From positions 1 to 20,769 of the IMG/VR virus record IMGVR_UViG_3300021574_000046: a DNA stretch of 20,769 nt. The stretch is one strand, 5' to 3'. Below, piece after piece: positions 5,953 to 19,491 of this stretch. The notes beneath the pieces are model-generated. The model did not search any database, had not been told where the DNA came from, and worked only from the letters and a program-made list of their open reading frames with translations. The first letter of the stretch is position 1, and every line of letters starts with the position of its first letter. This DNA comes from a virus. Made by a program: the position numbers and the translations under genes.

Positions 5953-6485
5953 CTGTTATCCTCTTCGTCGTCAGCGTCACTGTCTGCGTCACTGGTTGCT
6001 GGTTCGTCTTTCTCGACGACTGGGAACTCAGAGCCAGTGGACTCGAAGTAGAACTTGGAACGGTAGTGGTTGAGCATGGCCTCGAGCGTCTTGAGACGGT
6101 CAGCAGGTTTAGCCGTTTTGGAAACAGGAAGTGCGTCCGCAGATTGCAGAACTTGCATGAAAGCTACAGCGGAGTTAAGGGCTGATTGCTTTGCAATTAC
6201 AGTCTGTTTGGGATCTTCGTAGTTACCGCGTGCGGGCGCGCCAGCTGCAGGTGGAGCAGATGGAGCAGTAGCACCGCCAGCGATTACTTGCAGACTTTTT
6301 GTATCCATGTTTGCGTATTGGCCGTTGTAAGTCACGTTGAATGTGACGTTATCACCGACTTTGCACTTGGGCGGGTATTTACCGATACCGTAGCTTGTGC
6401 CGTTGACACGGGCACTGTACATTTGACCGAACTTGGTCTCTCGGGCGTCGATACTCTGGACGATGCCAGATACAGTATTACTCAA
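5946..6485 (-). CDS. Single-stranded DNA-binding protein-like (OB fold, acidic tail), TTG start
   Basis: 179 aa. Residues 1-70 look like a compact OB fold (VSGIVQSIDARETKFGQMYS, then YGIGKYPPKCKVGDNVTFNV). A flexible Ala/Pro/Gly linker follows, then a helical region, and an acidic tail ending DADDEEDNRW. An acidic C terminus capped by an aromatic residue is a hallmark of phage SSBs such as T7 gp2.5, where it contacts polymerase and helicase. The location between polymerase and RNR fits. The start is taken as TTG at 6485 because AAGGAG lies seven bases upstream; an ATG at 6512 would place the ribosome binding site inside the gene. Family assignment is from architecture rather than a specific named family. 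Confidence 0.72.
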   Translation of the reverse strand: MSNTVSGIVQSIDARETKFGQMYSARVNGTSYGIGKYPPKCKVGDNVTFNVTYNGQYANMDTKSLQVIAGGATAPSAPPAAGAPARGNYEDPKQTVIAKQSALNSAVAFMQVLQSADALPVSKTAKPADRLKTLEAMLNHYRSKFYFESTGSEFPVVEKDEPATSDADSDADDEEDNRW

Positions 6486-6720
6486 TGTGTTTCTCCTTGG
6501 TGGTACTAGCATTGTAAATGGCTGCTAGATTGGCCTTTGCCTGGTGCAATGTTTGTTTAACGGTCCCAACGCTAACTTCCATTGCTTCGGCAATTTCTCT
6601 GTATGTCTTGTCGTCTAACTTCATCTCTAGGGCTAGCTGTTGTCTTTCTGGTAGCTGGGCTTGTAGGTACTCTAGTAGTGCTACCTCTAGCTCTCTTGTG
6701 TACTCTTCGTCTGGCTGCAT
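6478..6720 (-). CDS. Sigma-70 region 4-like helix-turn-helix protein (80 aa)
   Basis: LPERQQLALEMKLDDKTYRE then IAEAMEVSVGTVKQTLHQAK is a clear sigma region 4 (ECF/LuxR-like) HTH; TVKQTLHQAKANL matches the usual TVKSRLHRARxxL recognition helix. There is no region 2, so it is not a complete sigma factor and may be a transcription regulator or RNA-polymerase-binding adaptor. The ATG at 6720 has only a weak ribosome binding site (GAAG). The same frame stays open for 29 sense codons upstream, back to the TAA that ends the 102-aa gene, and that stretch reads like protein (TSQAELAAITDDELVD). A non-AUG start or readthrough could give a longer product. It overlaps the SSB-like start by 8 bases. Confidence 0.78.
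   Translation of the reverse strand: MQPDEEYTRELEVALLEYLQAQLPERQQLALEMKLDDKTYREIAEAMEVSVGTVKQTLHQAKANLAAIYNASTTKEKHIE
6493..6498 (-). promoter_or_regulatory. Ribosome binding site fixing a TTG start
   Basis: AAGGAG seven bases before the TTG at 6485, inside the 3' end of the sigma-like gene. It selects TTG over the upstream ATG at 6512 as the start of the SSB-like protein. Confidence 0.72.
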
Positions 6721-6807
6721 CGGGCTTCTATCTACCAGCTCATCGTCCGTGATGGCTGCTAGTTCCGCTTGGCTAGTCCACAGGTCGTGTTCACCAAGCC
6801 CTCTGTT

Positions 6808-7116
6808 TTAGAACTTGTGGGCCCGCATTGCGCTGTCTAGATCTACTGAGAGTTTGTGTACGAAGTCGATTGCGACACCGTCTTTTAGTTTGTATCTGGT
6901 GTTTAGTAATTTCCAGACTGCGTTTTTGTCGGCACCAGATTGGTAGTCTAGTAGCAACTGTTTGCGTACTGCATTCAGTTCCTCGATGGTAGCACATTCT
7001 TTGGATAGTAGTGGGAGTCCGTACATTTTTCTTGCCAGTCGTAAGGCTGACTGTTTTTTTATTTCGTAAATGATAGGATCCTCGTCGTCCCACGGTTTGT
7101 AGTTGTGGTAAGTCAT
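6808..7116 (-). CDS. Hypothetical protein (102 aa), possible N-terminal half of the sigma-like protein
   Basis: Mostly helical, basic protein beginning MTYHNYKPWDDEDPIIYEIK, with a helical pair (about 43-90) that could be a DNA-binding or packing domain. No family is recognised. It starts with an ATGA overlap on the polymerase stop. It ends at a single TAA (6808-6810) and the same frame then continues with 29 sense codons into the sigma region 4-like gene. Readthrough would yield a 212-aa protein. Its size and position would suit the N-terminal part of a sigma-like regulator, but no region 2 motif is visible. Confidence 0.72.
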   Translation of the reverse strand: MTYHNYKPWDDEDPIIYEIKKQSALRLARKMYGLPLLSKECATIEELNAVRKQLLLDYQSGADKNAVWKLLNTRYKLKDGVAIDFVHKLSVDLDSAMRAHKF

Positions 7117-8996: not shown

Positions 8997-9099
8997 TATT
9001 CTCCTTTAGTAGTTTTTCTAAGTACTTGATTCTGCTTTCTGCTTTAAGCGCGCGGCTTCTCCACATGTCCAGGATTTTGTTGACAAAGTTGTTATTCAC
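8968..9099 (-). CDS. Small coiled-coil hypothetical protein (43 aa), GTG start
   Basis: Starts MNNNFVNKILDMWRSRALKA and continues through a basic amphipathic helix (RIKYLEKLLKENN). The GTG start overlaps the SleB-like stop as GTGA and has GGAG eight bases upstream. The 3' end overlaps the first 29 bases of the polymerase gene in another frame. It occupies the only gap between the hydrolase and the polymerase. No family is recognised. It may serve mainly to couple polymerase translation to the upstream genes. Confidence 0.55.
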   Translation of the reverse strand: MNNNFVNKILDMWRSRALKAESRIKYLEKLLKENNVSFEPDSS

Positions 9100-9458
9100 T
9101 TGTGTTCTCCGTAGAATAGATGTTTGCCGCGGATGATTAGTAGCTTCATTTTGCGTGCCCAGGAGGGTTTGACGCTGGTATTGTGGAAGTACAGTATGTC
9201 TTGGTTGAGATTACTTGCGTTTTCTAGTGCTTTGCGCGTAGCTTTCTTGGAAGCGTAAGAGGGTGTGGATACTTTGTTTATTCCCGTGAATTGGTGTTTT
9301 TGGTATACCACTTTGCATGGTGTATTTGGGAACTTTGGGTGATTGCTTCTGTTGAGGATTACTGCCACTACAAGATCCGGCCCGTTAGCAACTCCTCGTG
9401 TTTCAGAGTGCACTGCTTTTTCGATACACTGTATCTCTGTAGGAGGCAGATCTATCAT
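9096..9458 (-). CDS. SleB-type cell wall hydrolase
   Basis: 120-aa protein of the SleB/cell wall hydrolase (Hydrolase_2) family, which cleaves peptidoglycan glycan strands. AVHSETRGVANGPDLVVAVI holds the catalytic Glu region (E19 in SETRG), followed by LNRSNHPKFPNTPCKVVYQK and HQFTG, then FHNTSVKPSWAR and KHLFYG, the usual C-terminal landmarks. It is near the minimal domain length, with no signal peptide or binding domain. It sits inside the replication operon (ATGA overlap with the helicase stop, GTGA overlap with the next gene) rather than in a lysis cassette. This recalls T7 lysozyme gp3.5, which lies among replication genes and regulates RNA polymerase; that parallel is inference. Confidence 0.88.
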   Translation of the reverse strand: MIDLPPTEIQCIEKAVHSETRGVANGPDLVVAVILNRSNHPKFPNTPCKVVYQKHQFTGINKVSTPSYASKKATRKALENASNLNQDILYFHNTSVKPSWARKMKLLIIRGKHLFYGEHK

Positions 9459-10684
9459 ACGTCGTACATCCTGCTTACGTCTTTACGGACTTTTACGGGG
9501 AAGTTTTCGTGTTTACCTGTGCGTTTGTTCTTGACGATGGACATAATACGTAGCCCTTCTTCGTCTAGCTGCTTGTCAACACCGATGCCTACCTGTACGT
9601 CTAGGGCACCTTGGATGCCTGTTTTGCTGTTGTAGACGTCGTTCATGTCCAGAATCTGCTTGTTTTCAGCGCTGTCACCTGCCTGACATAGGCTGACCGC
9701 TAGCAGATTGTACTTTTTACCCATCTTACGCATCAACTTGGCAGAGTCTTCGAGCTCGTTGCTTCTGGAATCTTGGTATCCGCCCATGTTTAGGTTAGAG
9801 ATTTGGTCAACTACCAGGAATTCGGGCCTGTATCGCTCTACAAGGGCTTCAATCTGCTTTGGGGTACCAGGAGCTAGGGAAACGATTGTAAGGCGATTTA
9901 GGCCCTTTTCTAGGGCAATCTGCTTGTACCGGTCGAAGTCGGCTAGGACTACGTCTTGTGAGGTCTCGGTCATGTTACATATGAACCTGAGCCAGTAGGA
10001 GCTGGTTGGGTCTTCGTTGATGACCATTAGACCGCTGAGTCCCTGCATTAGGAACCCTGCAATGTTGGTAATAGCTGTTAGGGATTTGGCTGAGTTGGGT
10101 CTGCCAAAGAATAGAACGTGATTACCAGGGATTACCCCGCCCCCGACTCGCTTGTTTAGGGCATTTGGTCGAAGTTTGATCATGTTTTCTTTGGAGAACG
10201 TGGATGTGACCATGTCTACTGCGTCTTCGATGGTTGTGATTTCCATGTCCTTGTCGACAGGGTCATCTACAGCTTCTTTTGTCTGCAGTTCTGATAGTTC
10301 TGAGAGCAGTTGCTGCTCTGCTAGTGGGTCACCGTTGACTAGAGCTACTGCAAGTTTATCTTTTACCGTCTTGATCTGTGCCTGGAGCAACATGTGCTTT
10401 ACGTTTGGCACGCTGACGTCAACTTGCTTGCTTTTGACAGTGTTGAAGTACTCTGATAGAGTTTGTTGGTGTTTCTCTGCTCGTACTGTTTCCATCAGAC
10501 AACTGAGTACGATGCTAGTGTCGCATTGTTGAGCAGTGACGTCGCGCGAGTAGAACTTTTTAATCTCGACAAAGACCAACTGGGCCATTTTGTCTGTTTT
10601 CTTGAACATCGGAGAGCCATATTGGTCAACGAGTTCGAAAGCCTCTCTGCTAGCTAGGCTCGCTGCTAGTAATGTAGTCAGCAA
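9455..10684 (-). CDS. DnaB-like replicative DNA helicase, TTG start
   Basis: 409 aa with a RecA-fold ATPase at about 165-400. Walker A is GRPNSAKSL (194-202), the catalytic Glu is in MVINEDPTS (E224), Walker B is EFLVVDQISNL (D293), and SLCQAGDSAEN (about 331-341) matches the sensor/Gln region of DnaB helicases. The glycine before the Walker A lysine is replaced by alanine. The N-terminal 160 residues are helical and may carry a primase-interacting or linker function. It starts with TTG at 10684, eight bases after AAAGGAG; no ATG is available nearby. It overlaps the primase by 35 bases, as expected for a primase-helicase pair encoded as separate proteins. Confidence 0.93.
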   Translation of the reverse strand: MLTTLLAASLASREAFELVDQYGSPMFKKTDKMAQLVFVEIKKFYSRDVTAQQCDTSIVLSCLMETVRAEKHQQTLSEYFNTVKSKQVDVSVPNVKHMLLQAQIKTVKDKLAVALVNGDPLAEQQLLSELSELQTKEAVDDPVDKDMEITTIEDAVDMVTSTFSKENMIKLRPNALNKRVGGGVIPGNHVLFFGRPNSAKSLTAITNIAGFLMQGLSGLMVINEDPTSSYWLRFICNMTETSQDVVLADFDRYKQIALEKGLNRLTIVSLAPGTPKQIEALVERYRPEFLVVDQISNLNMGGYQDSRSNELEDSAKLMRKMGKKYNLLAVSLCQAGDSAENKQILDMNDVYNSKTGIQGALDVQVGIGVDKQLDEEGLRIMSIVKNKRTGKHENFPVKVRKDVSRMYDV

Positions 10685-11501
10685 ATAGCGTTCTCCTTTC
10701 TTCGATAGTCATATTCTTGATGTCTTTGGATAGTGGTAGTAGTTTAGCATTCTTAATCTTGCCTTTGGCTACTATTTCTGTCGCTGTGCCGATAGCGTCG
10801 TTGTCTAGGGCTATTAAGACTGTTGTGTAGTTGACGCTGTTGATGTCCTCGACCATTGAGTCTGTGATGTGTGTGCCTAGTAAGGCTGCAGCATCTAGAC
10901 CTTCTTGTCGTGTGGCAATGGCTGAGAGCAGATCTTCTGTGATTACCAGTGTACTGCCCGGCCAGAACCCTTTCATGTACCATGCCACTCCTCCGTATTC
11001 CCCACACATCGTGAGTGATTTGGGGGTTTGTTCTTTGAGCATGTCTTTTAGGTCGTATCCCTCTAGGTCCAGGTATTTGGAAAAGATTGGAATAGCGATA
11101 CGGCCTTTGCCCTCTGGGCTGTACGTCGTTGTGTAGCGTGTGAAAGCTTTACGTAGATCGATGTTGAAGCGGGAGGCGGCGAGCTCTTGTAGCGCATCTG
11201 GGACGGGGTCTTTATGTACCTTCATGAAGGTCTCAAGACGCATCAGCTTTGGTGACTTAGGCTGTTTCTCTGGTTTAGGTAGTGCGGTACCTTTGCCAGC
11301 GGCACTAGACCCTTTTATCTTACAGCTGTCTCTGAAGCAGATCCACAAGACTCTGCCATCGTCCTTTTTAGTGATGCTGCACGACTTTTCAGCGGAACTG
11401 CCGCCTCCGCATTCTGGACAGACAACAGTGACTGTTTCTCCGGATTGCAGGTTAGCTGCTTCTAGTAAAATCTCTGTTCTTGTCTGTTTAGATGTGGCCA
11501 T
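10650..11501 (-). CDS. DNA primase (zinc-binding plus TOPRIM domain)
   Basis: 283-aa phage primase that makes RNA primers on single-stranded DNA. An N-terminal zinc finger is formed by CPEC (C28, C31) and C55 and C60 in WICFRDSC, as in T7 gp4-type zinc-binding domains. A TOPRIM domain follows: TLVITEDLLSAIA (E189) and VLIALDNDAIG (D233, D235) supply metal-binding acids. Unlike T7 gp4 it is not fused to the helicase, which follows with a 35-base overlap. The ATG overlaps the stop of the amidotransferase gene (TAATG), linking the amide-ligation block to the replication genes in one transcription unit. Confidence 0.93.
   Translation of the reverse strand: MATSKQTRTEILLEAANLQSGETVTVVCPECGGGSSAEKSCSITKKDDGRVLWICFRDSCKIKGSSAAGKGTALPKPEKQPKSPKLMRLETFMKVHKDPVPDALQELAASRFNIDLRKAFTRYTTTYSPEGKGRIAIPIFSKYLDLEGYDLKDMLKEQTPKSLTMCGEYGGVAWYMKGFWPGSTLVITEDLLSAIATRQEGLDAAALLGTHITDSMVEDINSVNYTTVLIALDNDAIGTATEIVAKGKIKNAKLLPLSKDIKNMTIEERRTLFADYITSSEPS
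10693..10699 (-). promoter_or_regulatory. Ribosome binding site fixing the helicase TTG start
   Basis: AAAGGAG inside the 3' part of the primase gene, eight bases before the TTG at 10684. It supports a TTG start for the helicase. Confidence 0.72.
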
Positions 11502-12733
11502 TAGTAAGGTAGTGAGTATCCTGCTGGGGCTAGTGTTAGTATTCCGTTACTTAGTTGGCCCGCGGTTGGGGGCAGTCCGATGAAGTATCCGTCTTCTTGC
11601 ATGCCTTTGACTGTTATTTCGATTTCGTTATAACGCATGAGATTGGCTGCTTGTGTGGCGCTTGTGCAGCGTACTACGATTGCGTCGTTATTGCCTACTG
11701 GTGCGTAAGGATTGGCGTTAGATATCACGTCTAGGTAGACATTGAAGTTGTCTGTGTCTTTGTATATTGGCACTGCTCTGGCAGTTACTTCGTGTTCTCC
11801 TGTCCAGTTAAACAGTGCATCAGTTTCTTCTTGGGATAGTCCGTTGATAGAGCGGCTGCATCTAGTAGTCGTTGTTAGTGGAGTGACAGTCGTGAGCGAG
11901 CTGAAGTCCGTGAGGGTGTTTGCACGGGCTTGTCTTTCGATCTCCTTGACTTCGCTGATAATGCGCGGTCTACGATTGTCCGTGACGTTGCTGTAGCTGT
12001 ACGTTTTCGTTTGCCGAGGAATCACCTTTTTGATAGGTGTTTTTGTGAACTGTCTGACGTCGTGTAGCGGGAAAGCGTAAGTCTGGTGTGTTTCTGCTTC
12101 GTAAATTGCATCGTCTTCTAGTTCTAGTTTGTTACGCTCGGCAAGCCAGCTGAGCATTCCAGCTTCTGAACAGATGAGCACGACTGACTTGTCTTTTACG
12201 AACGCATAGTGCAGTGGGCGTTCGCCGTTGGTGGCCATGTGGGTGATTTGACTTTCCATATCAGTCCAGATGATAGACCAGGCACCGTATAGATCGTCAA
12301 GGCCCTGAGCGCCGTTATCGTTGATGCGGGCGGCTAGGGCTTCGGTGTCAGTACTGAACTTTTTCTTGTCCCAGTCTTCGATCGTGCCGTTGTGCACTAG
12401 AGCAAAATCGTCTTCTCCGTTGCTGTTTTCGTGGATGAAAGGATGAGCATTGGCGTTGTTGATTTTACCAGTCGTTGCTTTTCTGTTGTGGACTACTGTT
12501 ACGTAAGACACGTCTGCATCTGCTAGTAGTTCTGCAGCTTTTGGCATGCTGATGAAGGTGCTGCCGTCTACTGCTTTCTTGTAAGATTGCAGTTCTAGAT
12601 TGCCGTTGATCTGGTACATGCCTGTGGAATCTGCTCCACGAAGCTGAGTCACGATGGTAGCGTCTGTGATGAACTTATCTAGTCCTGAGACAATATTACT
12701 TTCGCTGTTAAGTACTGCTGTTAATCCGCACAT
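11501..12733 (-). CDS. Class II glutamine amidotransferase (Ntn hydrolase) with C-terminal extension
   Basis: 410 aa. The first ~210 residues are a class II glutamine amidotransferase: nucleophile Cys2 in MCGLTAVL, then RGADSTG (32-38), VVHNRKATTG (80-89), NAHPF (95-99), LVHNGTI (112-118) and TDTEALAAR. Such domains hydrolyse glutamine and pass ammonia to a partner site, or in some families act as peptidases or transferases. Residues ~215-410 form an extension with a Ser/Thr-rich linker and a region of unknown fold; there is no PRTase, synthetase or sugar-isomerase domain of the GlmS/PurF/AsnB types. It sits next to an amidoligase gene, so it probably works with that enzyme. AAGGAAA precedes the ATG. 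Confidence 0.88.
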   Translation of the reverse strand: MCGLTAVLNSESNIVSGLDKFITDATIVTQLRGADSTGMYQINGNLELQSYKKAVDGSTFISMPKAAELLADADVSYVTVVHNRKATTGKINNANAHPFIHENSNGEDDFALVHNGTIEDWDKKKFSTDTEALAARINDNGAQGLDDLYGAWSIIWTDMESQITHMATNGERPLHYAFVKDKSVVLICSEAGMLSWLAERNKLELEDDAIYEAETHQTYAFPLHDVRQFTKTPIKKVIPRQTKTYSYSNVTDNRRPRIISEVKEIERQARANTLTDFSSLTTVTPLTTTTRCSRSINGLSQEETDALFNWTGEHEVTARAVPIYKDTDNFNVYLDVISNANPYAPVGNNDAIVVRCTSATQAANLMRYNEIEITVKGMQEDGYFIGLPPTAGQLSNGILTLAPAGYSLPY

Positions 12734-12748
12734 TAGTTAGTTTCCTTA

Positions 12749-13810
12749 TTAAAAGAGTGGAGGCATTACGCCTGTTCTTACGTACTCCTGGTAGACTGAG
12801 TTTCCTGCAGCCATTCTTGCTACTCGTCTTTCTAGTTCTGCTGCGTCAGGTACTACAGTGCCAGTTGTTGTGTTTTCGTAGTAATCTGGTTGTTCGTTTC
12901 GATCTGCTGGTCGTTCTTCCATCATCTGCTGCAGTTCAGTTTCTAGTATGATGGTGTCTTCTGGTTTGTATGTTATCATTATTTTTGCCTCTTCTATGAG
13001 TTCTAGGAACTTTTCGATTGTCGGCATTTCGTGCTCTGCGCCAAATGCAGCTTCGATCTGTGCACGTACTAGGTGGTACATTGCCTCAAGGTCTTTTCTG
13101 ACATTGTCATTTCCTGCGCTTTCCCAGGCAGCCATGCCGCATTGTTTTACTGCTAGGCACGCATTGATGTTTTTTACTGCCTCTTCGATAGTTTCTGGTG
13201 TCGAGAAGTGCCTGAATTCTAGGGTTCCGTACTTTGATAGAGCCGAAGCATTCATTGAGTAGTAGCGCGTGTCTGGTGTGTACAGTCGGATTTCGTCTTC
13301 TGTTTCTCCGTCGTCGTGTAGATAACTGATAATGCCAGCAAGCGCTTCTTCGCTTTCTATAGAGTATCCTAGATATTTTCTGTTGTTGTCTGTTAAGTTG
13401 AACAACGCTTTGTCCGCAAGTAATGCTGCGATCATTATGGACATTAGCTGCAGTCTGTTAACATTGAGCATGTTAACGTGGACGTGCATTGACGTTCGTA
13501 GCGTTTTGTGCTGCACGAACATACCGTCTGCGAAGGCATCGCTCAGACTTTCTAGAGCTTTGATGACTGTGTCTCCTTTAAGAGGAGCACTGAACACAAA
13601 TTCGCGTGACTGTCCTCGCAGAGAACCGTCTGTCTTGCGTTCCCAGTGTAGTAGGTCTCCCCTGCTCATGTAGTTTACGGCTAGGTTTTCCATCTCGATT
13701 TCTACTCCTACTGAAGTAGTTTCGTCTACTAGAGATAGATTGCTTCGTTTTACAGTATTTTGGCTTTTGTCAGGATCTTGTTTGCCGATGGCTTGACTTA
13801 GCGTTTGCAT
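12749..13810 (-). CDS. Amidoligase (COOH-NH2 ligase), complete motif set
   Basis: 353-aa member of the amidoligase group, glutamine-synthetase-fold enzymes that join a carboxylate to an amine with ATP. Ordered motifs: SVGVEIEMEN (33-42, the GxExE metal-binding strand), KTDGSL (59-64), REFVFSAPLKG (69-79), RTSMHVHVN (105-113) and TRYYSMNASALSKYGTLEFR (181-200) followed by HF. All are hallmark positions of Amidoligase_2/phiEco32-like COOH-NH2 ligases. The family is predicted to modify peptides or make small amide-linked metabolites; phage substrates are not known to me. It lies directly downstream of the 297-aa unknown gene and upstream of the large amidotransferase. Confidence 0.9.
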   Translation of the reverse strand: MQTLSQAIGKQDPDKSQNTVKRSNLSLVDETTSVGVEIEMENLAVNYMSRGDLLHWERKTDGSLRGQSREFVFSAPLKGDTVIKALESLSDAFADGMFVQHKTLRTSMHVHVNMLNVNRLQLMSIMIAALLADKALFNLTDNNRKYLGYSIESEEALAGIISYLHDDGETEDEIRLYTPDTRYYSMNASALSKYGTLEFRHFSTPETIEEAVKNINACLAVKQCGMAAWESAGNDNVRKDLEAMYHLVRAQIEAAFGAEHEMPTIEKFLELIEEAKIMITYKPEDTIILETELQQMMEERPADRNEQPDYYENTTTGTVVPDAAELERRVARMAAGNSVYQEYVRTGVMPPLF

Positions 13811-13812
13811 GT

Positions 13813-14706
13813 TTAACCTTTTTTGTTGATGTAGCTAAATACTTTATTGTTTTTTGCCCAGATTGTTTTGTTGCCTTCTACCCACCCTGCCAGCTCTTCA
13901 CCAGTTAGCGATTCGAGTCTCCATTTGATTCTGTAGACTTCTCCGTTTTCTTTGTAGCGCGTTTCTTTAGACAGTCTTACCTTTCTGGAGATGGCTACAG
14001 CGTCTAGATCATCACCCTTTTTTAGCATTTCTAGAGCTTCTTTTAGGGTCGGATATGTTGGGTTGATGAATTGTTCTGCGTATTTTGGGTTTTCTTGGAG
14101 CATTTTGACTGTGTTGTCGTTGATTTTGTGGCACCGTCTGCCGTTTATTGAGAATAATCGGTTTTTTACGTTGATCCACCCTTGCTGCAGTTTGAAACCT
14201 TTTAGAGAGGTGAAATCATTGATGTTAATTAGCAGTTGTTTGCTTCTCGGGTTGGAGATTGGCGTGAATTCTAGACAGACTTGGTTAGCATTAGTTTCAT
14301 TTTCTTCTACGTTCCAGCTGTTTTCTAGCTTTTCACCGTTTTCGATTAGTTCTTTCATTGACCGGATTTCTTCATTCCAGTCTTCCCACTCGTCGGTGTG
14401 TTCATCGCTCTCTACCATGTCTCCGTCATCGTCTTCGTATGTGTAGTATTGGTCGGGCGGGTACTCTTGCATGGTTTCTAGGTGGGCTCTTTGCCTTTTT
14501 AGCCACTCTCTTAGTGCTTCTAGGCTACCGAATGTGGCTTTGGTTAGTCCGCTGGCCTCTGCGTAGCGTTTGGCGCCTTTTATGTACACTCCGTTAACGT
14601 TGAACCCTTTTAGCTGGTATAGTAGACCGTTGTGAATGTACAGACCGCCTACGTATTCGTTTATGAAGTACTCGTCGCCAAATCCGTCTACTACGTTTTT
14701 GTTCAT
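13813..14706 (-). CDS. Hypothetical protein (297 aa) within the amidoligase cluster
   Basis: No family recognised. The N-terminal part is beta-rich with repeated short strands (GGLYIHNGLLYQLKGFNVNG). A strongly acidic helical centre follows (EDDDGDMVESDEHTDEWEDW, about 91-110), then a second beta-rich part (GFKLQQGWINVKNRLFSING) and a basic C terminus ending VFSYINKKG. The two repeating patterns 'YIHNGLLYQL' and 'WINVKNRLFSI' hint at related beta units. It has an ATGA overlap with the preceding gene and ends two bases before amidoligase 1, so it is surely co-expressed with the ligases. Possible roles are substrate, scaffold or carrier; this is inference. Confidence 0.8.
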   Translation of the reverse strand: MNKNVVDGFGDEYFINEYVGGLYIHNGLLYQLKGFNVNGVYIKGAKRYAEASGLTKATFGSLEALREWLKRQRAHLETMQEYPPDQYYTYEDDDGDMVESDEHTDEWEDWNEEIRSMKELIENGEKLENSWNVEENETNANQVCLEFTPISNPRSKQLLININDFTSLKGFKLQQGWINVKNRLFSINGRRCHKINDNTVKMLQENPKYAEQFINPTYPTLKEALEMLKKGDDLDAVAISRKVRLSKETRYKENGEVYRIKWRLESLTGEELAGWVEGNKTIWAKNNKVFSYINKKG

Positions 14707-15047
14707 GCTGCTTTTCTCACTAGTTTGTGTTTTCGTGTTACTACGTTGTCTTTGTTGTTTGTTAGCATTGGTAGTGCTAGTACTACTTCTTTGCGCGCAA
14801 TTGGTTCAGCTTTTTCGTTGTAGATCTTTTCATAAAGTTCTAGTCCGTGCCTTAGTACTCCCTTTTCGAGCTGTAGCATGAGTTCTGAGGACTCTACTGG
14901 AGTTTTGATTAGCTTCCAGATTTCCAGTTCGAACGCGTTGTTTAGGATTTTATGTTGTATTCCGTAAGTTACTAGGTCATCTGTTTCGAATATGGAGGTG
15001 AACTTGATGTTTCCGAAGGTTCTTCCTTCGAGTTTGTATGTGTCCAT
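14703..15047 (-). CDS. Hypothetical protein (114 aa) within the amidoligase cluster
   Basis: Starts MDTYKLEGRTFGNIKFTSIF; beta-rich first third, then helices (FELEIWKLIKTPVESSELML) and a basic tail ending RKHKLVRKAA. No family recognised. Its start overlaps the ATP-grasp stop (TAATG) and its stop overlaps the next gene (ATGA), so it is translated in lockstep with the ATP-grasp ligase. The short size and exposed basic tail make it a possible modification target or partner, but nothing in the sequence proves that. Confidence 0.78.
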   Translation of the reverse strand: MDTYKLEGRTFGNIKFTSIFETDDLVTYGIQHKILNNAFELEIWKLIKTPVESSELMLQLEKGVLRHGLELYEKIYNEKAEPIARKEVVLALPMLTNNKDNVVTRKHKLVRKAA

Positions 15048-15832
15048 TATGCCACCATTTGTTGAAATGCGTCTCGATAAGCGTTGATTGTGGTTTCTCC
15101 CTCAAGTCCTGGAGCTGTGTTAACTTCTAGGATGAATACGGAGTTGTCTTGGCTTACGATGACGTCTACTGCTCCGAAGTCTAGACCCAGTGCTGCTACT
15201 GCTTTGATGCACATTGGTTTGAGCATTTCTGGTGGATTATCTACGTCGTTACAAGCAAAGACCCATCCATTGTCGTGACTGCGAATTAGTGCTTGGTCTG
15301 GAGTCTGTTCGACACCGCTACGTTTTCTTTTTTGGATTAGAAGGATTACTTCGCCGTCGACTACGTGAGCACGGTACTCTGCTTTCTTTTTGGTGTACTC
15401 GACTACGATTTTGGCATTTTCTGGGATGCGTTCGCCACGGCGTAGGACTGTGATTCCTGTGCCAGAGTGTCCAGATAGTAGTGACCGAGCCAGAAGGATA
15501 GGAGTAGTGCCGTCGTCCAGTAGTTGCTGAGCTTCTTGGAAGTTGGCAGGTGTCCAGAACTTTGGGATATTGATGCCGACATGTGGTAGTAGTGTTTTGA
15601 AGGTTTTTAGTTTATCGCACGCCAAACTGACTGCGTAAGGTTTGTTTAGTAGGGTCCTGCGACCATTGTTCCAGGACTCGATAGGCTGCGACGAGCCCCA
15701 GTTGATGATGATTTTATCATTCTGGAACAGTCGCGGGGGCCAGGAGCCAAGCTTGTTTCGTTTACAGCGCAGAGCTTTTGCTAGTGTTTTGCTGCCAGTT
15801 GATGCTCTGTTTCTGACAATTTTGAATGTCAT
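15047..15832 (-). CDS. ATP-grasp ligase (RimK/D-Ala-D-Ala ligase-like)
   Basis: 261-aa ATP-grasp enzyme expected to activate a carboxylate as acyl-phosphate and join it to an amine or thiol. Motifs: ILLARSLLSGHSGTGITVLR (112-131, ATP-binding strand plus Gly-rich loop), KIVVEYTKKKAEYRAHVV (141-158, with adenine-contacting acids and the EYR strand), GLDFGAVDVIV (216-226) and FILEVNTAPGLEG (233-245, Mg-binding E236 and N238). The N-terminal ~90 residues form a reduced pre-grasp domain. AAGGA lies 7 bases before the ATG, and the start overlaps the stop of amidoligase 2. Together with two amidoligases it gives three potential amide-forming enzymes in this block. Confidence 0.92.
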   Translation of the reverse strand: MTFKIVRNRASTGSKTLAKALRCKRNKLGSWPPRLFQNDKIIINWGSSQPIESWNNGRRTLLNKPYAVSLACDKLKTFKTLLPHVGINIPKFWTPANFQEAQQLLDDGTTPILLARSLLSGHSGTGITVLRRGERIPENAKIVVEYTKKKAEYRAHVVDGEVILLIQKRKRSGVEQTPDQALIRSHDNGWVFACNDVDNPPEMLKPMCIKAVAALGLDFGAVDVIVSQDNSVFILEVNTAPGLEGETTINAYRDAFQQMVA

Positions 15833-16776
15833 CTGTGCGTCCTTAGTGTTCCTGTGCTGTCACATGCTGGAATTCTGCTGCGTGTACGAGTTGGGTTGTG
15901 TAGTGTCCACTCTCTGAATTCTTCTGTTGTGAATTGTGCGAATAGCGCGAGTGCTCTTGAATCTGGCACGAATTCTTTTTTTACGAGAGGGGCATTTGCT
16001 GACGTATTTAGGATTGCGTCTAGTAGTTCATTTTTCTTGCTATCGCTCATTTGTGTTAGTACATTTTTATTTTTTGCTAAGCTATGCACGAACAGGTTTA
16101 GCATGGTATTTGCATTGTCGTTTGCGAATCTGCGTGCTTTTTGTACCAATTCTGCTTTTTTCTTGAAAGCTTCGATGTCGGTGTTCATGTGGAATCCACG
16201 GACCTCAGCAATTGGTGACTTTGCGTGACGAATTCCTGCGTAGTTGTGACGGGCGAATGGAAGTGCTTTTTCTCTTAGGTTATGGTTTGCGTGCAGTACT
16301 GACAGTTTGGTTAACGCTGCTAGTTCTGTATCTGTTTCGCCAACGAGAGGCGGTGCGCTTTGCAGCATGTGGGTGATTGCTCCTTCTAACCCGATATAAC
16401 TGCCCGCACGTTCCATGATGTCGTTTTGGACTCTGGCTTGCGACATTGCAAAGTTTAGTGTTGCAAAGAAGGCCATGGTTTCTACGACTGTCATTCCTGC
16501 TAGATTGACGTTGACATGCAGTCCGTAGTTGTGTGGTTGTTTGCCACGCTGCACGCCCATCTCGTCAGTCATCCTGGTCAAGATGGAGTTCATCCACTTT
16601 CCGCGCAGTTCGGTGATCTTTAGCGGACGTTTGGTGATGAGTTCGATGCCACTGTTCAGTAGACTTCCGTCTGTTTCTGCGTCAAGCTGGTAGCGAGACC
16701 GTTTTATGCGACGGCGTGCACCTGAGTGGTAGCCGCGGATTGGGATATCTTTTTTGATGGGGGCAGTGGCTATCAT
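15829..16776 (-). CDS. Second amidoligase-like protein, lacking the N-terminal GxExE strand
   Basis: 315 aa. Recognisable amidoligase motifs: AETDGSL (33-39), SGIELITKRPL (42-52), HNYGLHVNVN (82-91), RHNYAGIRHAKSPIAEVRGF (176-195). These resemble the phiEco32-like COOH-NH2 ligase type 2 more than amidoligase 1 does. The usual first metal-binding strand (GxExE) should precede DGSL by about 25 residues, but this region is basic (SGARRRIKRSRY) without acidic residues. The frame cannot be extended: an in-frame TAA lies eight codons upstream. It may be an altered or partner-dependent ligase. The C-terminal ~115 residues are helical and basic. ATGA overlaps link it to the amidotransferase before it and the ATP-grasp gene after it. 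Confidence 0.8.
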   Translation of the reverse strand: MIATAPIKKDIPIRGYHSGARRRIKRSRYQLDAETDGSLLNSGIELITKRPLKITELRGKWMNSILTRMTDEMGVQRGKQPHNYGLHVNVNLAGMTVVETMAFFATLNFAMSQARVQNDIMERAGSYIGLEGAITHMLQSAPPLVGETDTELAALTKLSVLHANHNLREKALPFARHNYAGIRHAKSPIAEVRGFHMNTDIEAFKKKAELVQKARRFANDNANTMLNLFVHSLAKNKNVLTQMSDSKKNELLDAILNTSANAPLVKKEFVPDSRALALFAQFTTEEFREWTLHNPTRTRSRIPACDSTGTLRTHR

Positions 16777-17303
16777 TTTGCGTAATTCCAGTGGTTGTTA
16801 GAGTACCAGGTGTTTTCTTTCCAGTATCCTTGACTTTCGTTTACGATTTTGAAGGTTTTGTCTTTGTACAGCAGGATTAGTTTGTTGTATGTCCCGATGA
16901 CGTCACCTAGTCGTTTGATTACGATTGGGTTATCCATTAGGGCTTGATCGTCGAGCAGTGTTTTGGTCTCTTCGACGAAGTCGCGCGTGTCGCTCATTGT
17001 TCCGTTTGTGCCGTACAGAACGCCGTTGTGTACCAGCACTGAGTTTTCCATGATGAATGGATGTGCGTTATCTGGGATGATACCGCCGCTGGTGGCGATT
17101 CTGCAGTGTGTCACCAGGTTTTCTTTGTCAGCAAGTCGCATGCCCTGTTCGATGTAATCGCTTTCGACCATGATGTGTCGATGAGTGAAGATTTTACCGT
17201 CTTCTGCATAAGCGAAGCCACCGCCGTGTCTGTTTGCTCGAAAGAATTGTGAGAGTTCTTGTTCTTTGAAGCCGCCTGTTTTAGAAATTGCTGCAATGCA
17301 CAT
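16773..17303 (-). CDS. Minimal class II glutamine amidotransferase
   Basis: 176 aa, a stand-alone Ntn-type amidotransferase domain. The start ATG is placed so that Cys2 becomes N-terminal (MCIAAISKTG), as catalysis requires. Supporting motifs are NRHGGGFAYA (24-33), THCRIATSGG (65-74), NAHPF (79-83) and LVHNGVLYG (90-98). A longer reading from upstream would bury the Cys and overlap the 42-aa membrane peptide gene. It is shorter than the 410-aa paralog-like protein at the other end of the cluster and lacks its C-terminal extension, so the cluster carries two amidotransferases and two amidoligases arranged around one ATP-grasp. The stop overlaps amidoligase 2 (ATGA). Confidence 0.9.
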   Translation of the reverse strand: MCIAAISKTGGFKEQELSQFFRANRHGGGFAYAEDGKIFTHRHIMVESDYIEQGMRLADKENLVTHCRIATSGGIIPDNAHPFIMENSVLVHNGVLYGTNGTMSDTRDFVEETKTLLDDQALMDNPIVIKRLGDVIGTYNKLILLYKDKTFKIVNESQGYWKENTWYSNNHWNYAK

Positions 17304-17448: not shown

Positions 17449-17524
17449 TGGTGCTCCGTGAGAGACTTGAACTCCCGACCTACCGCTTACAAGGCGGTTG
17501 CTCTACCAACTGAGCTAACGGAGC
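17449..17524 (-). tRNA. tRNA-Thr (anticodon UGU)
   Basis: Complete cloverleaf on the minus strand: 7-bp acceptor GCTCCGT/ACGGAGC, D-arm GCTC/GAGC, anticodon stem ACCGC/GCGGT with loop CTTGTAA (anticodon TGT), T-arm GGGAG-TTCAAGT-CTCTC, discriminator A and encoded CCA. Reads ACA codons, and ACU/ACG by wobble depending on modification. Confidence 0.95.
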
Positions 17525-17528
17525 AAAT

Positions 17529-17605
17529 TGGCGCGCCCGGAGGGAGTTGAACCCCCAACCAACGGAGTAGAAGTCCGTTGCTCTATCCAGTTGAGCTACG
17601 GACGC
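17529..17605 (-). tRNA. tRNA-Arg (anticodon UCU)
   Basis: Complete cloverleaf on the minus strand: acceptor GCGTCCG/CGGGCGC with one G-U pair, D-arm GCTC/GAGC, anticodon stem ACGGA/TCCGT with loop CTTCTAC (anticodon TCT), T-arm GGGGG-TTCAACT-CCCTC, discriminator G and encoded CCA. Reads AGA, a codon frequent in the genes to the left. Only four bases separate it from tRNA-Thr. Confidence 0.95.
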
Positions 17606-17611
17606 ATTTGT

Positions 17612-17683
17612 TTAGAGAATAATCAATGCTCCTAGTACTCCGATTAGTAGTAGTGCATAGAATGTTTTTTCACCACGGGACAT
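17612..17683 (-). CDS. Tiny single-span membrane peptide (23 aa)
   Basis: MSRGEKTFYALLLIGVLGAL ending IIL: a short basic head and one hydrophobic span to the last residue. Its ATG overlaps the last codons of the 91-aa gene and it ends just before tRNA-Arg. The ribosome binding site is weak, so expression would need coupling. Three consecutive CTA codons match the phage tRNA-Leu(UAG). The clean N-in membrane topology argues for a real peptide, but its size leaves doubt. Confidence 0.45.
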   Translation of the reverse strand: MSRGEKTFYALLLIGVLGALIIL

Positions 17684-17945
17684 CTTCACAGATTGTGTGT
17701 TCAACGTCGGCTGGGAGTTTACCGCACGTACATGTTCGACAATTGCTAGTTTCCATTGCGGGCTCAATGTCGTATCCTTTGGCATAACTGCATCCTCTGT
17801 ATGTGAGTTGGGCGTTAGTTAGAAACTGGTTTGCATTGTTGGGTTTTGCGTAGTATTTTAAAAGCTCTTTTGCTTTTTCTTCTGCTTCTTTGTCACTATC
17901 TGCTTCGATTCCAGGTAAGTTGATGCTGTAGTGGTACTGGTACAT
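17670..17945 (-). CDS. Small Cys-rich hypothetical protein (91 aa)
   Basis: Starts MYQYHYSINLPGIEADSDKE, with a helical acidic region (EADSDKEAEEKAKELLKYYA) and a Cys-containing C-terminal half (RGCSYAKG, then NCRTCTCGKL and TICEDVPW). The C-x2-C-x-C cluster could bind a metal. AAGGAA lies eight bases before the ATG, and the gene starts just after tRNA-Leu. A longer reading would run into the tRNA and is rejected. The small beta-then-helix start resembles modulator-type phage proteins, but no family is recognised. Confidence 0.7.
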   Translation of the reverse strand: MYQYHYSINLPGIEADSDKEAEEKAKELLKYYAKPNNANQFLTNAQLTYRGCSYAKGYDIEPAMETSNCRTCTCGKLPADVEHTICEDVPW

Positions 17946-17963
17946 GAGTAGTGTTCCTTGAGA

Positions 17964-18048
17964 TGGTGCGGACGGAGAGACTCGAACTCTCACATCTTGC
18001 GATACTAGAACCTAAATCTAGGGCGTCTACCAATTCCGCCACATCCGC
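17964..18048 (-). tRNA. tRNA-Leu (anticodon UAG)
   Basis: Complete class II tRNA on the minus strand: acceptor GCGGATG/CGTCCGC with one T-G pair, D-loop AATTGGTAGA, anticodon stem CTAGA/TCTAG with loop TTTAGGT (anticodon TAG), long variable arm (TATCGCAAGATGTG), T-arm GAGAG-TTCGAGT-CTCTC, discriminator A and encoded CCA. Reads CUA, which is unusually common in the genes to its left. Confidence 0.95.
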
Positions 18049-18659: not shown

Positions 18660-19037
18660 TTACAGGTCGTCGACTTCGACTTCTTGCACTTCTTCGAGGT
18701 CGAGAACGAAGTCGGAAGCTTCGTCGTCACGCTTGATGGTAGCGGTGTATTGCTTGCCATTCCACAGGAACGAGCCGGTGTGGAGACCTTTGCGGCGCAT
18801 CCAGACGGAGCCGGTACCGTTGTAGTCACCGGTCGCGCGGTCCATGTCGGTCACGATGATGGAGAACGTCGGCTGTTTGTTACGGCCTTGGGTCTTGGTC
18901 GCTTCGTCTTGTGCGGCCTTCCAGCGGGGGTTGAAAACGACGCGGATTTCGCGGTTGATGTCACCGGCCAGTTGGGCGGCGAAGTATCGGTTACCGGAAT
19001 TGCGCGAGACTTGCGGGTTTGCGAGAACAGTTTGCAT
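18660..19037 (-). CDS. Hypothetical protein (125 aa), paralog of the 124-aa neighbour
   Basis: Shares with the preceding gene the ordered motifs NPRWKAAQDEA (36-46), RNKQP (52-56), GDYNGTGSVW (70-79), an IKR at 101-103, and an acidic end VEVDDL. Predicted beta-rich (IRVVFNPRW, TFSIIVTDM, GKQYTATIKR), so possibly an OB- or jellyroll-like single domain with a flexible acidic tail, as in some nucleic-acid-binding phage proteins. AAGGA lies upstream of the ATG. Codons are GC-rich and standard, suggesting high expression. No family recognised. Confidence 0.82.
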   Translation of the reverse strand: MQTVLANPQVSRNSGNRYFAAQLAGDINREIRVVFNPRWKAAQDEATKTQGRNKQPTFSIIVTDMDRATGDYNGTGSVWMRRKGLHTGSFLWNGKQYTATIKRDDEASDFVLDLEEVQEVEVDDL

Positions 19038-19116: not shown

Positions 19117-19491
19117 TCAGATATCATCGATGGAAACTTCATCTTGCGAGGTAAGTACAAACTCGAACGAAGTCGGACTGTTACGCTTGATGTCGACGAG
19201 GTACGTCACGCCTTCCAGAAGGAAGTTGCCTTGATAGCATTTGCCATCTTTGCGCATCATGGCCCATGCGGCACCAGTGCCGTCGAAGTTGGCGGTGCTT
19301 TCGGTGTATTCCGATTGCAGTAGCCATACGGGTTGCTTGTTCTTGAAGCCTTCGGCTTTGGCTTCGTGCTCTGCTTGCTTCCATCGAGGATTGATGGTGA
19401 GATACAGGCCACGTTGCTGGAAGGTAACTTTCCAGTACTTGTTTCCTGCTTTGGATTGTTGCATCTCGTGGTGGTTAAGTACGGCGTTCAT
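19117..19491 (-). CDS. Hypothetical protein (124 aa), paralog of the 125-aa neighbour
   Basis: Starts MNAVLNHHEM. Shared motifs with the downstream paralog: SKAGNKYW (13-20), NPRWKQAEHEA (34-44), KNKQP (50-54), ANFDGTGAAW (67-76), IKR (101-103), FEFVL and the terminal IDDI. It differs through most of its core, so the duplication is old. Aromatic and basic residues in the shared positions and the acidic tail suggest a nucleic-acid- or protein-binding role; that is inference. TAGGAGAATAAC precedes the ATG. Confidence 0.82.
   Translation of the reverse strand: MNAVLNHHEMQQSKAGNKYWKVTFQQRGLYLTINPRWKQAEHEAKAEGFKNKQPVWLLQSEYTESTANFDGTGAAWAMMRKDGKCYQGNFLLEGVTYLVDIKRNSPTSFEFVLTSQDEVSIDDI

Follow-up and report, generated by a model that had tools for sequence, protein, structure and literature searches.

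An amide-ligation module with two ligase-amidotransferase pairs around one ATP-grasp ligase in a phage contig

A block of seven genes at positions 11501-17303 of IMG/VR virus record IMGVR_UViG_3300021574_000046 almost certainly belongs to the amide-ligase module of phages phiEco32, LUZ24 and RIO-1. The whole analysed stretch of 20,769 nucleotides is referred to here as the window. The genes, lettered A to G, are all on the minus strand, and in the list of open reading frames (ORFs) neighbouring genes overlap or nearly touch, as the first-pass annotation of this DNA had described. They are read in the order G, F, E, D, C, B, A, with a primase and a DnaB-like helicase following. One ATP-grasp ligase (E) is flanked on each side by an amidoligase (B, F) and a class II glutamine amidotransferase (GATase; A, G), an arrangement that recurs in four divergent lineages. 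The best overall explanation, offered tentatively, is that the block is a two-pair amide-ligation module of the early region, acting on peptidoglycan precursors.

Gene identities in the block

Gene A (11501..12733, 410 amino acids) is a class II GATase by both Pfam (GATase_6, 2.7e-11) and PHROG (phrog_4736, 8e-47). Gene B (12749..13810, 353 amino acids) encodes an amidoligase with a GS/GCS-like fold, matching phrog_7469 at 7.1e-33 and Pfam Amidoligase_2 at 5.8e-4, a score just under the Pfam cut-off. Alignment of B-type ligases yields the signature GxExE ... DGSLR ... RTSxHVHxN ... EFR. Gene E (15047..15832, 261 amino acids) encodes a RimK-like ATP-grasp ligase (Pfam RimK, 7.3e-8; phrog_2599, 3.6e-62) with a conserved LEVNTAPG motif, and its profile matches solved RimK ligases at 4e-12. 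The likeness to phiEco32-type phages proposed earlier is borne out by E, B and A, whose matches phrog_2599, phrog_7469 and phrog_4736 are families of the phage cassette.

The second GATase, G (16773..17303, 176 amino acids), is short. Its Pfam match is weak and its match to phrog_4736 (8.4e-9) is clear; among its relatives Cys2 is invariant and NAHPF and HNG are conserved, and it is 31% identical over its full length to a protein of phage StenR_269. The earlier choice of start is retained, position 17303 being the most likely and a longer ORF disfavoured.

The second amidoligase, F (15829..16776, 315 amino acids in the window), has no match in a Pfam search. Its profile aligns with that of the B family in hhalign at 99.2% probability (E 2.5e-19, 218 columns). 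An intact copy is present in L015 (IMGVR_UViG_3300031857_012850), a sibling contig from another assembly and the sole sibling covering F. In Foldseek, the predicted fold of that copy, a low-confidence model (pLDDT 58.7), matches YbdK first (E 1.4e-4), followed by Dop/PafA and glutamine synthetases. Profile and model thus assign F, as a predicted member, to the GS/GCS-fold carboxylate-amine ligase superfamily. A sequence search of solved structures with the ligases and C gave nothing useful. Close sequence relatives of F were not found in named phages, and a scan of viral contigs with the F profile recovered only the sibling contig and that of locus L105. Taken together, the family searches, the alignment of F with B and the fold match of the sibling model indicate that the ligase and GATase motifs reflect homology rather than chance. 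The two class II amidotransferases, two amidoligases and ATP-grasp enzyme read by the first-pass annotation therefore stand, with F incomplete in the window.

The incompleteness of F is visible in DNA alignment with L015, which is 99.6-99.9% identical to the window across the shared region. The L015 gene carries an extra 99 bp, in frame, and encodes 348 rather than 315 amino acids. The 33 codons absent from the window include the GxExE strand. Few features are nearly invariant across 31 aligned relatives, and this strand is among them; when 163 family members longer than 280 amino acids were screened with a loose motif, only F of the window lacked it. By analogy, this strand is needed for ligase activity. 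Since a segment with so conserved a strand is absent, F of the window is probably inactive or misassembled.

Two further proteins had been annotated as unknown. This holds for D (14703..15047, 114 amino acids), for which Pfam, PHROG and NCBIfam searches gave no match and which occurs in 3 of 173 surveyed loci, all of the window species. It probably does not hold for C (13813..14706, 297 amino acids), which aligns in hhalign at 92.3% probability, over 40 amino acids only, with a cassette family of about 200 amino acids (PA11/O4 gp54-like). That family sits directly before the amidoligase in 54 loci, the position C occupies, and the segments of C flanking the aligned stretch also resemble it by eye. 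Position, alignment and flanks make C a probable divergent member of this family, with an insertion. The structure model of C is of low confidence, and a fold search with it gave no matches. A Pfam hit of C to Peptidase_C8 (E 0.005, under the cut-off) was rejected as chance, C aligning with the cassette family instead.

Linkage and recurrence across phages

The survey set comprised 173 non-redundant loci (the window, named phages and IMG/VR contigs), whose ORFs were searched with cassette-protein profiles. Linkage was counted in the 66 ATP-grasp loci that had 4 kb or more of sequence on each side; they come from Zobellviridae, Kuravirus, Grimontviridae and unclassified phages. In all 66 the ATP-grasp gene has both an amidoligase and a class II GATase within 6 kb, and in 62 a primase or helicase lies no more than 8 kb away; the 66 include near relatives and so are not 66 independent events. 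This co-occurrence supports the earlier reading of the block as a single unit, and the unit travels together in many phages. The ligase and GATase also exist alone as a two-gene unit: in 66 loci with a short GATase and no ATP-grasp gene, the GATase is immediately preceded by an amidoligase, mostly within 10 bp. The survey separates constant parts (ATP-grasp, B-type ligase, class II GATase) from swappable ones, and together with the two-gene unit this yields a minimal set for expression and assay. Isolates carrying each form are StenR_269, PA11-like phages, phiEco32-like phages and MEP402.

Podoviruses commonly carry the cassette, which has been named and given a working hypothesis in print. 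The first-pass annotation had anticipated none of this, nor the damage to F. Iyer et al. 2009 is reportedly the first analysis of the module. It has been called the "peptidoglycan modification cassette", with superinfection exclusion as its suggested role (PMC5498523, PMC11945000; also PMC10580990, which cites Iyer et al. 2009 on the module). Carriers in print are phiEco32, LUZ24, PA11, RIO-1 and CW02 (PMC5498523, PMC11945000) and, alongside RIO-1, PSA-HP1 (PMC5498523); the papers on UFV-P2 (PMC3890496) and tf (PMC3517423) list the same genes. The earlier statement that substrate and product are not established agrees with the literature on cassette-bearing phages, where no report of either was found.

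The classic cassette contains one Amidoligase_2 enzyme, one COOH-NH2 ligase (PF14395) and one class II GATase, often together with a Peptidase_C26-type GATase and GGCT. The window shares with it the RimK-like ATP-grasp ligase, the Amidoligase_2 enzyme, the class II GATase and the placement before primase and helicase, with C as a candidate for the protein of about 200 amino acids before the ligase. Unlike the classic form, it has two class II GATases and, besides B, an amidoligase of a different subtype. The COOH-NH2 ligase type 2 (PF14395) is absent from the window in both the Pfam search and the locus survey; only 39 of 66 cassettes have it, so it does not define all cassettes.

The arrangement of two GATase-ligase pairs around one ATP-grasp gene, as claimed for the window, is found in other phages as well. 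The window species, StenR_269 (L007), L046 and L105 share the order GATase-ligase, ATP-grasp, ligase-GATase, primase, and this two-pair form is rarer than the one-pair cassette. The earlier suggestion that the extra pair points to a multi-step product gained no support. StenR_269 (OR838459; PMC10747016) has the same order of GATase, ligase, ATP-grasp, small genes, ligase, GATase, primase and helicase, and the DNA polymerase closest to that of the window (48%). Its proteins are only 25-38% identical to those of the window where alignable, with a strongly diverged ligase at the F position. StenR_269 additionally carries GGCT and, upstream, another related protein, neither of which the window has. 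The F-position ligases of the double-pair loci carry YG(L/M)H(V/I)N or WGMHVN in place of RTSxHVHxN of B; an N-terminal YHS is common to three of these four ligases. The OM43 phages MEP401/402 and the Manatee Spring podovirus pair (PMC10580990) resemble the window in having an amidoligase with a short class II GATase of the G lineage, but they have a single pair, a longer ligase (519-551 amino acids) and no ATP-grasp gene that was found there.

In a GATase tree, the four double-pair A proteins form one clade (100/96) inside the classic phiEco32/LUZ24 cassette group. The four G proteins cluster weakly (83/37) among short GATases, a grouping that long branches make uncertain. On this tree A and G appear as two old, separate GATase lineages. 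Tandem duplication of one pair was rejected, as A and G belong to different deep clades of the GATase tree and can be aligned over just 39 residues. The sequences instead fit one joining of two older pairs, in which A would pair with B and G with F. It is possible, if doubtful, that the double-pair loci represent a previously undescribed subtype, formed once from a classic pair and a short-GATase-lineage pair around one ATP-grasp gene, with a chemically different product. If the gamma-glutamyl parts (COOH-NH2 ligase and C26 hydrolase) have indeed been replaced, the product would differ from that of the classic cassette.

L007 and L046 contain a further relative of the StenR_269 F-position ligase upstream of the module (L007:3096-3983 and L046:4871-5890). 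This protein, absent from the window, could be either a third ligase or an inactive homologue. The phage ATP-grasp protein also has close relatives (36-40% identity) in a few contigs of bacterial metagenome-assembled genomes (L184-L188), which are probably prophage or binned phage DNA.

Candidate substrates

The enzyme families suggest reaction types, from which we infer a pathway. E would join an amino acid to a carboxylate via an acyl phosphate. A and G would hydrolyse glutamine and pass ammonia to their paired ligases B and F, which would activate a carboxylate with ATP and then amidate it or couple it to an amine; C could assist B as a binding or scaffolding partner. The most likely target is host peptidoglycan precursors, which would be both ligated and amidated, and the altered wall would protect against superinfecting phages or wall-active enzymes. 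In cells, ATP-grasp enzymes add an acidic residue to peptidoglycan precursors and class II GATases amidate side chains, and Peptidase_C26-type hydrolases and GGCT act on gamma-glutamyl bonds. This cellular use, together with the gamma-glutamyl hydrolases of classic cassettes, makes wall modification the leading hypothesis, and peptidoglycan a plausible, still tentative target.

Several points weigh against this assignment. No experiments on any phage version were found in the literature. E is closest to RimK and MptN, which add L-glutamate to proteins or cofactors, and not to the D-amino-acid ligases of the wall. Wall modification and DNA or nucleotide chemistry would suit the position in the replication region equally well. 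F of the window is without its GxExE strand. Finally, a Peptidase_C26-type GATase and GGCT, the parts most suggestive of gamma-glutamyl chemistry, were not found in the window, although the contig covers only part of a genome and these parts are missing from many cassettes too.

Because the enzymes most closely related to E attach glutamate to proteins and cofactors, small-molecule and protein targets remain candidates. A soluble product with amide linkages, either a small molecule or a short peptide (gamma-glutamyl or poly-amino-acid), serving as an inhibitor, decoy or counter-defence agent, is unlikely but worth weighing: the combination of ATP-grasp, GS-fold ligase and GATase is typical of such pathways, the gene set is compact and self-contained, and the E profile weakly matches cyanophycin synthetase, MptN and the MvdC/D peptide ligases. 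Such a product is harder to reconcile with the lack of a transporter, carrier or tailoring enzymes adjoining the module, and the PADLOC models of anti-phage defence gave no matches among the seven proteins.

Tagging of a host or phage protein, as by RimK on S6 or PafA/Dop with Pup, appears rather improbable. Among solved structures, those nearest to E are RimK ligases, the L015 model of F matches Dop/PafA after YbdK, and C or D could serve as substrate or adaptor. However, those Dop/PafA matches are weak (E 0.06-0.2), the cassettes lack a conserved Pup-like small protein, and D is confined to the window species.

An amide-bearing nucleotide or DNA modification is very improbable. The module is in almost every case adjacent to primase, helicase and DNA polymerase genes, and the ORFs of the window phage include ThyX, dUTPase and RNR, but many early phage functions occupy the same region and the primase linkage holds for minimal sets too. 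Known DNA hypermodification enzymes were not seen in the window.

A supply of glutamine or nitrogen to the infected cell, following the "glutamine synthesis" label that the StenR_269 authors gave these genes (PMC10747016), is likewise very improbable. The GS fold and GATase domains favour it. The label nevertheless does not fit the families identified here: the ligases are a distant branch and not GlnA, two glutaminases would use up glutamine, and making glutamine does not involve an ATP-grasp ligase.

Whatever the target, four or more linked biosynthetic enzymes are kept in hundreds of phage genomes, and this common pathway was a puzzle before the window was analysed.

Sequence gaps and neighbouring genes

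A second gap affects a sigma-70-type gene (6478-7116), which is split into two ORFs in the window and forms a single open frame of 269 amino acids in L015. The window lacks about 150 bases near 6802-6809 that two siblings have, and the split is likely an assembly fault or a defective variant. That a single contig has two gaps of this kind points to assembly faults or a defective subpopulation.

Directly downstream of A on the minus strand are the primase (10650-11501) and the DnaB-like helicase (9455-10684). Between the helicase and the DNA polymerase of this replication operon lies a SleB-like cell wall hydrolase (9096-9458; Hydrolase_2, 1.5e-20), an odd position for an endolysin. A general link between this hydrolase and the module was rejected, as only 14 of 107 ATP-grasp loci have it.

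Two adjacent paralogues of about 125 amino acids (18660-19037 and 19117-19491) are 33% identical and have no Pfam match. Three phage tRNA genes (Thr-TGT, Arg-TCT and Leu-TAG) occupy 17449-18048, a short way upstream of the module, and StenR_269 likewise has tRNA genes upstream of its module.

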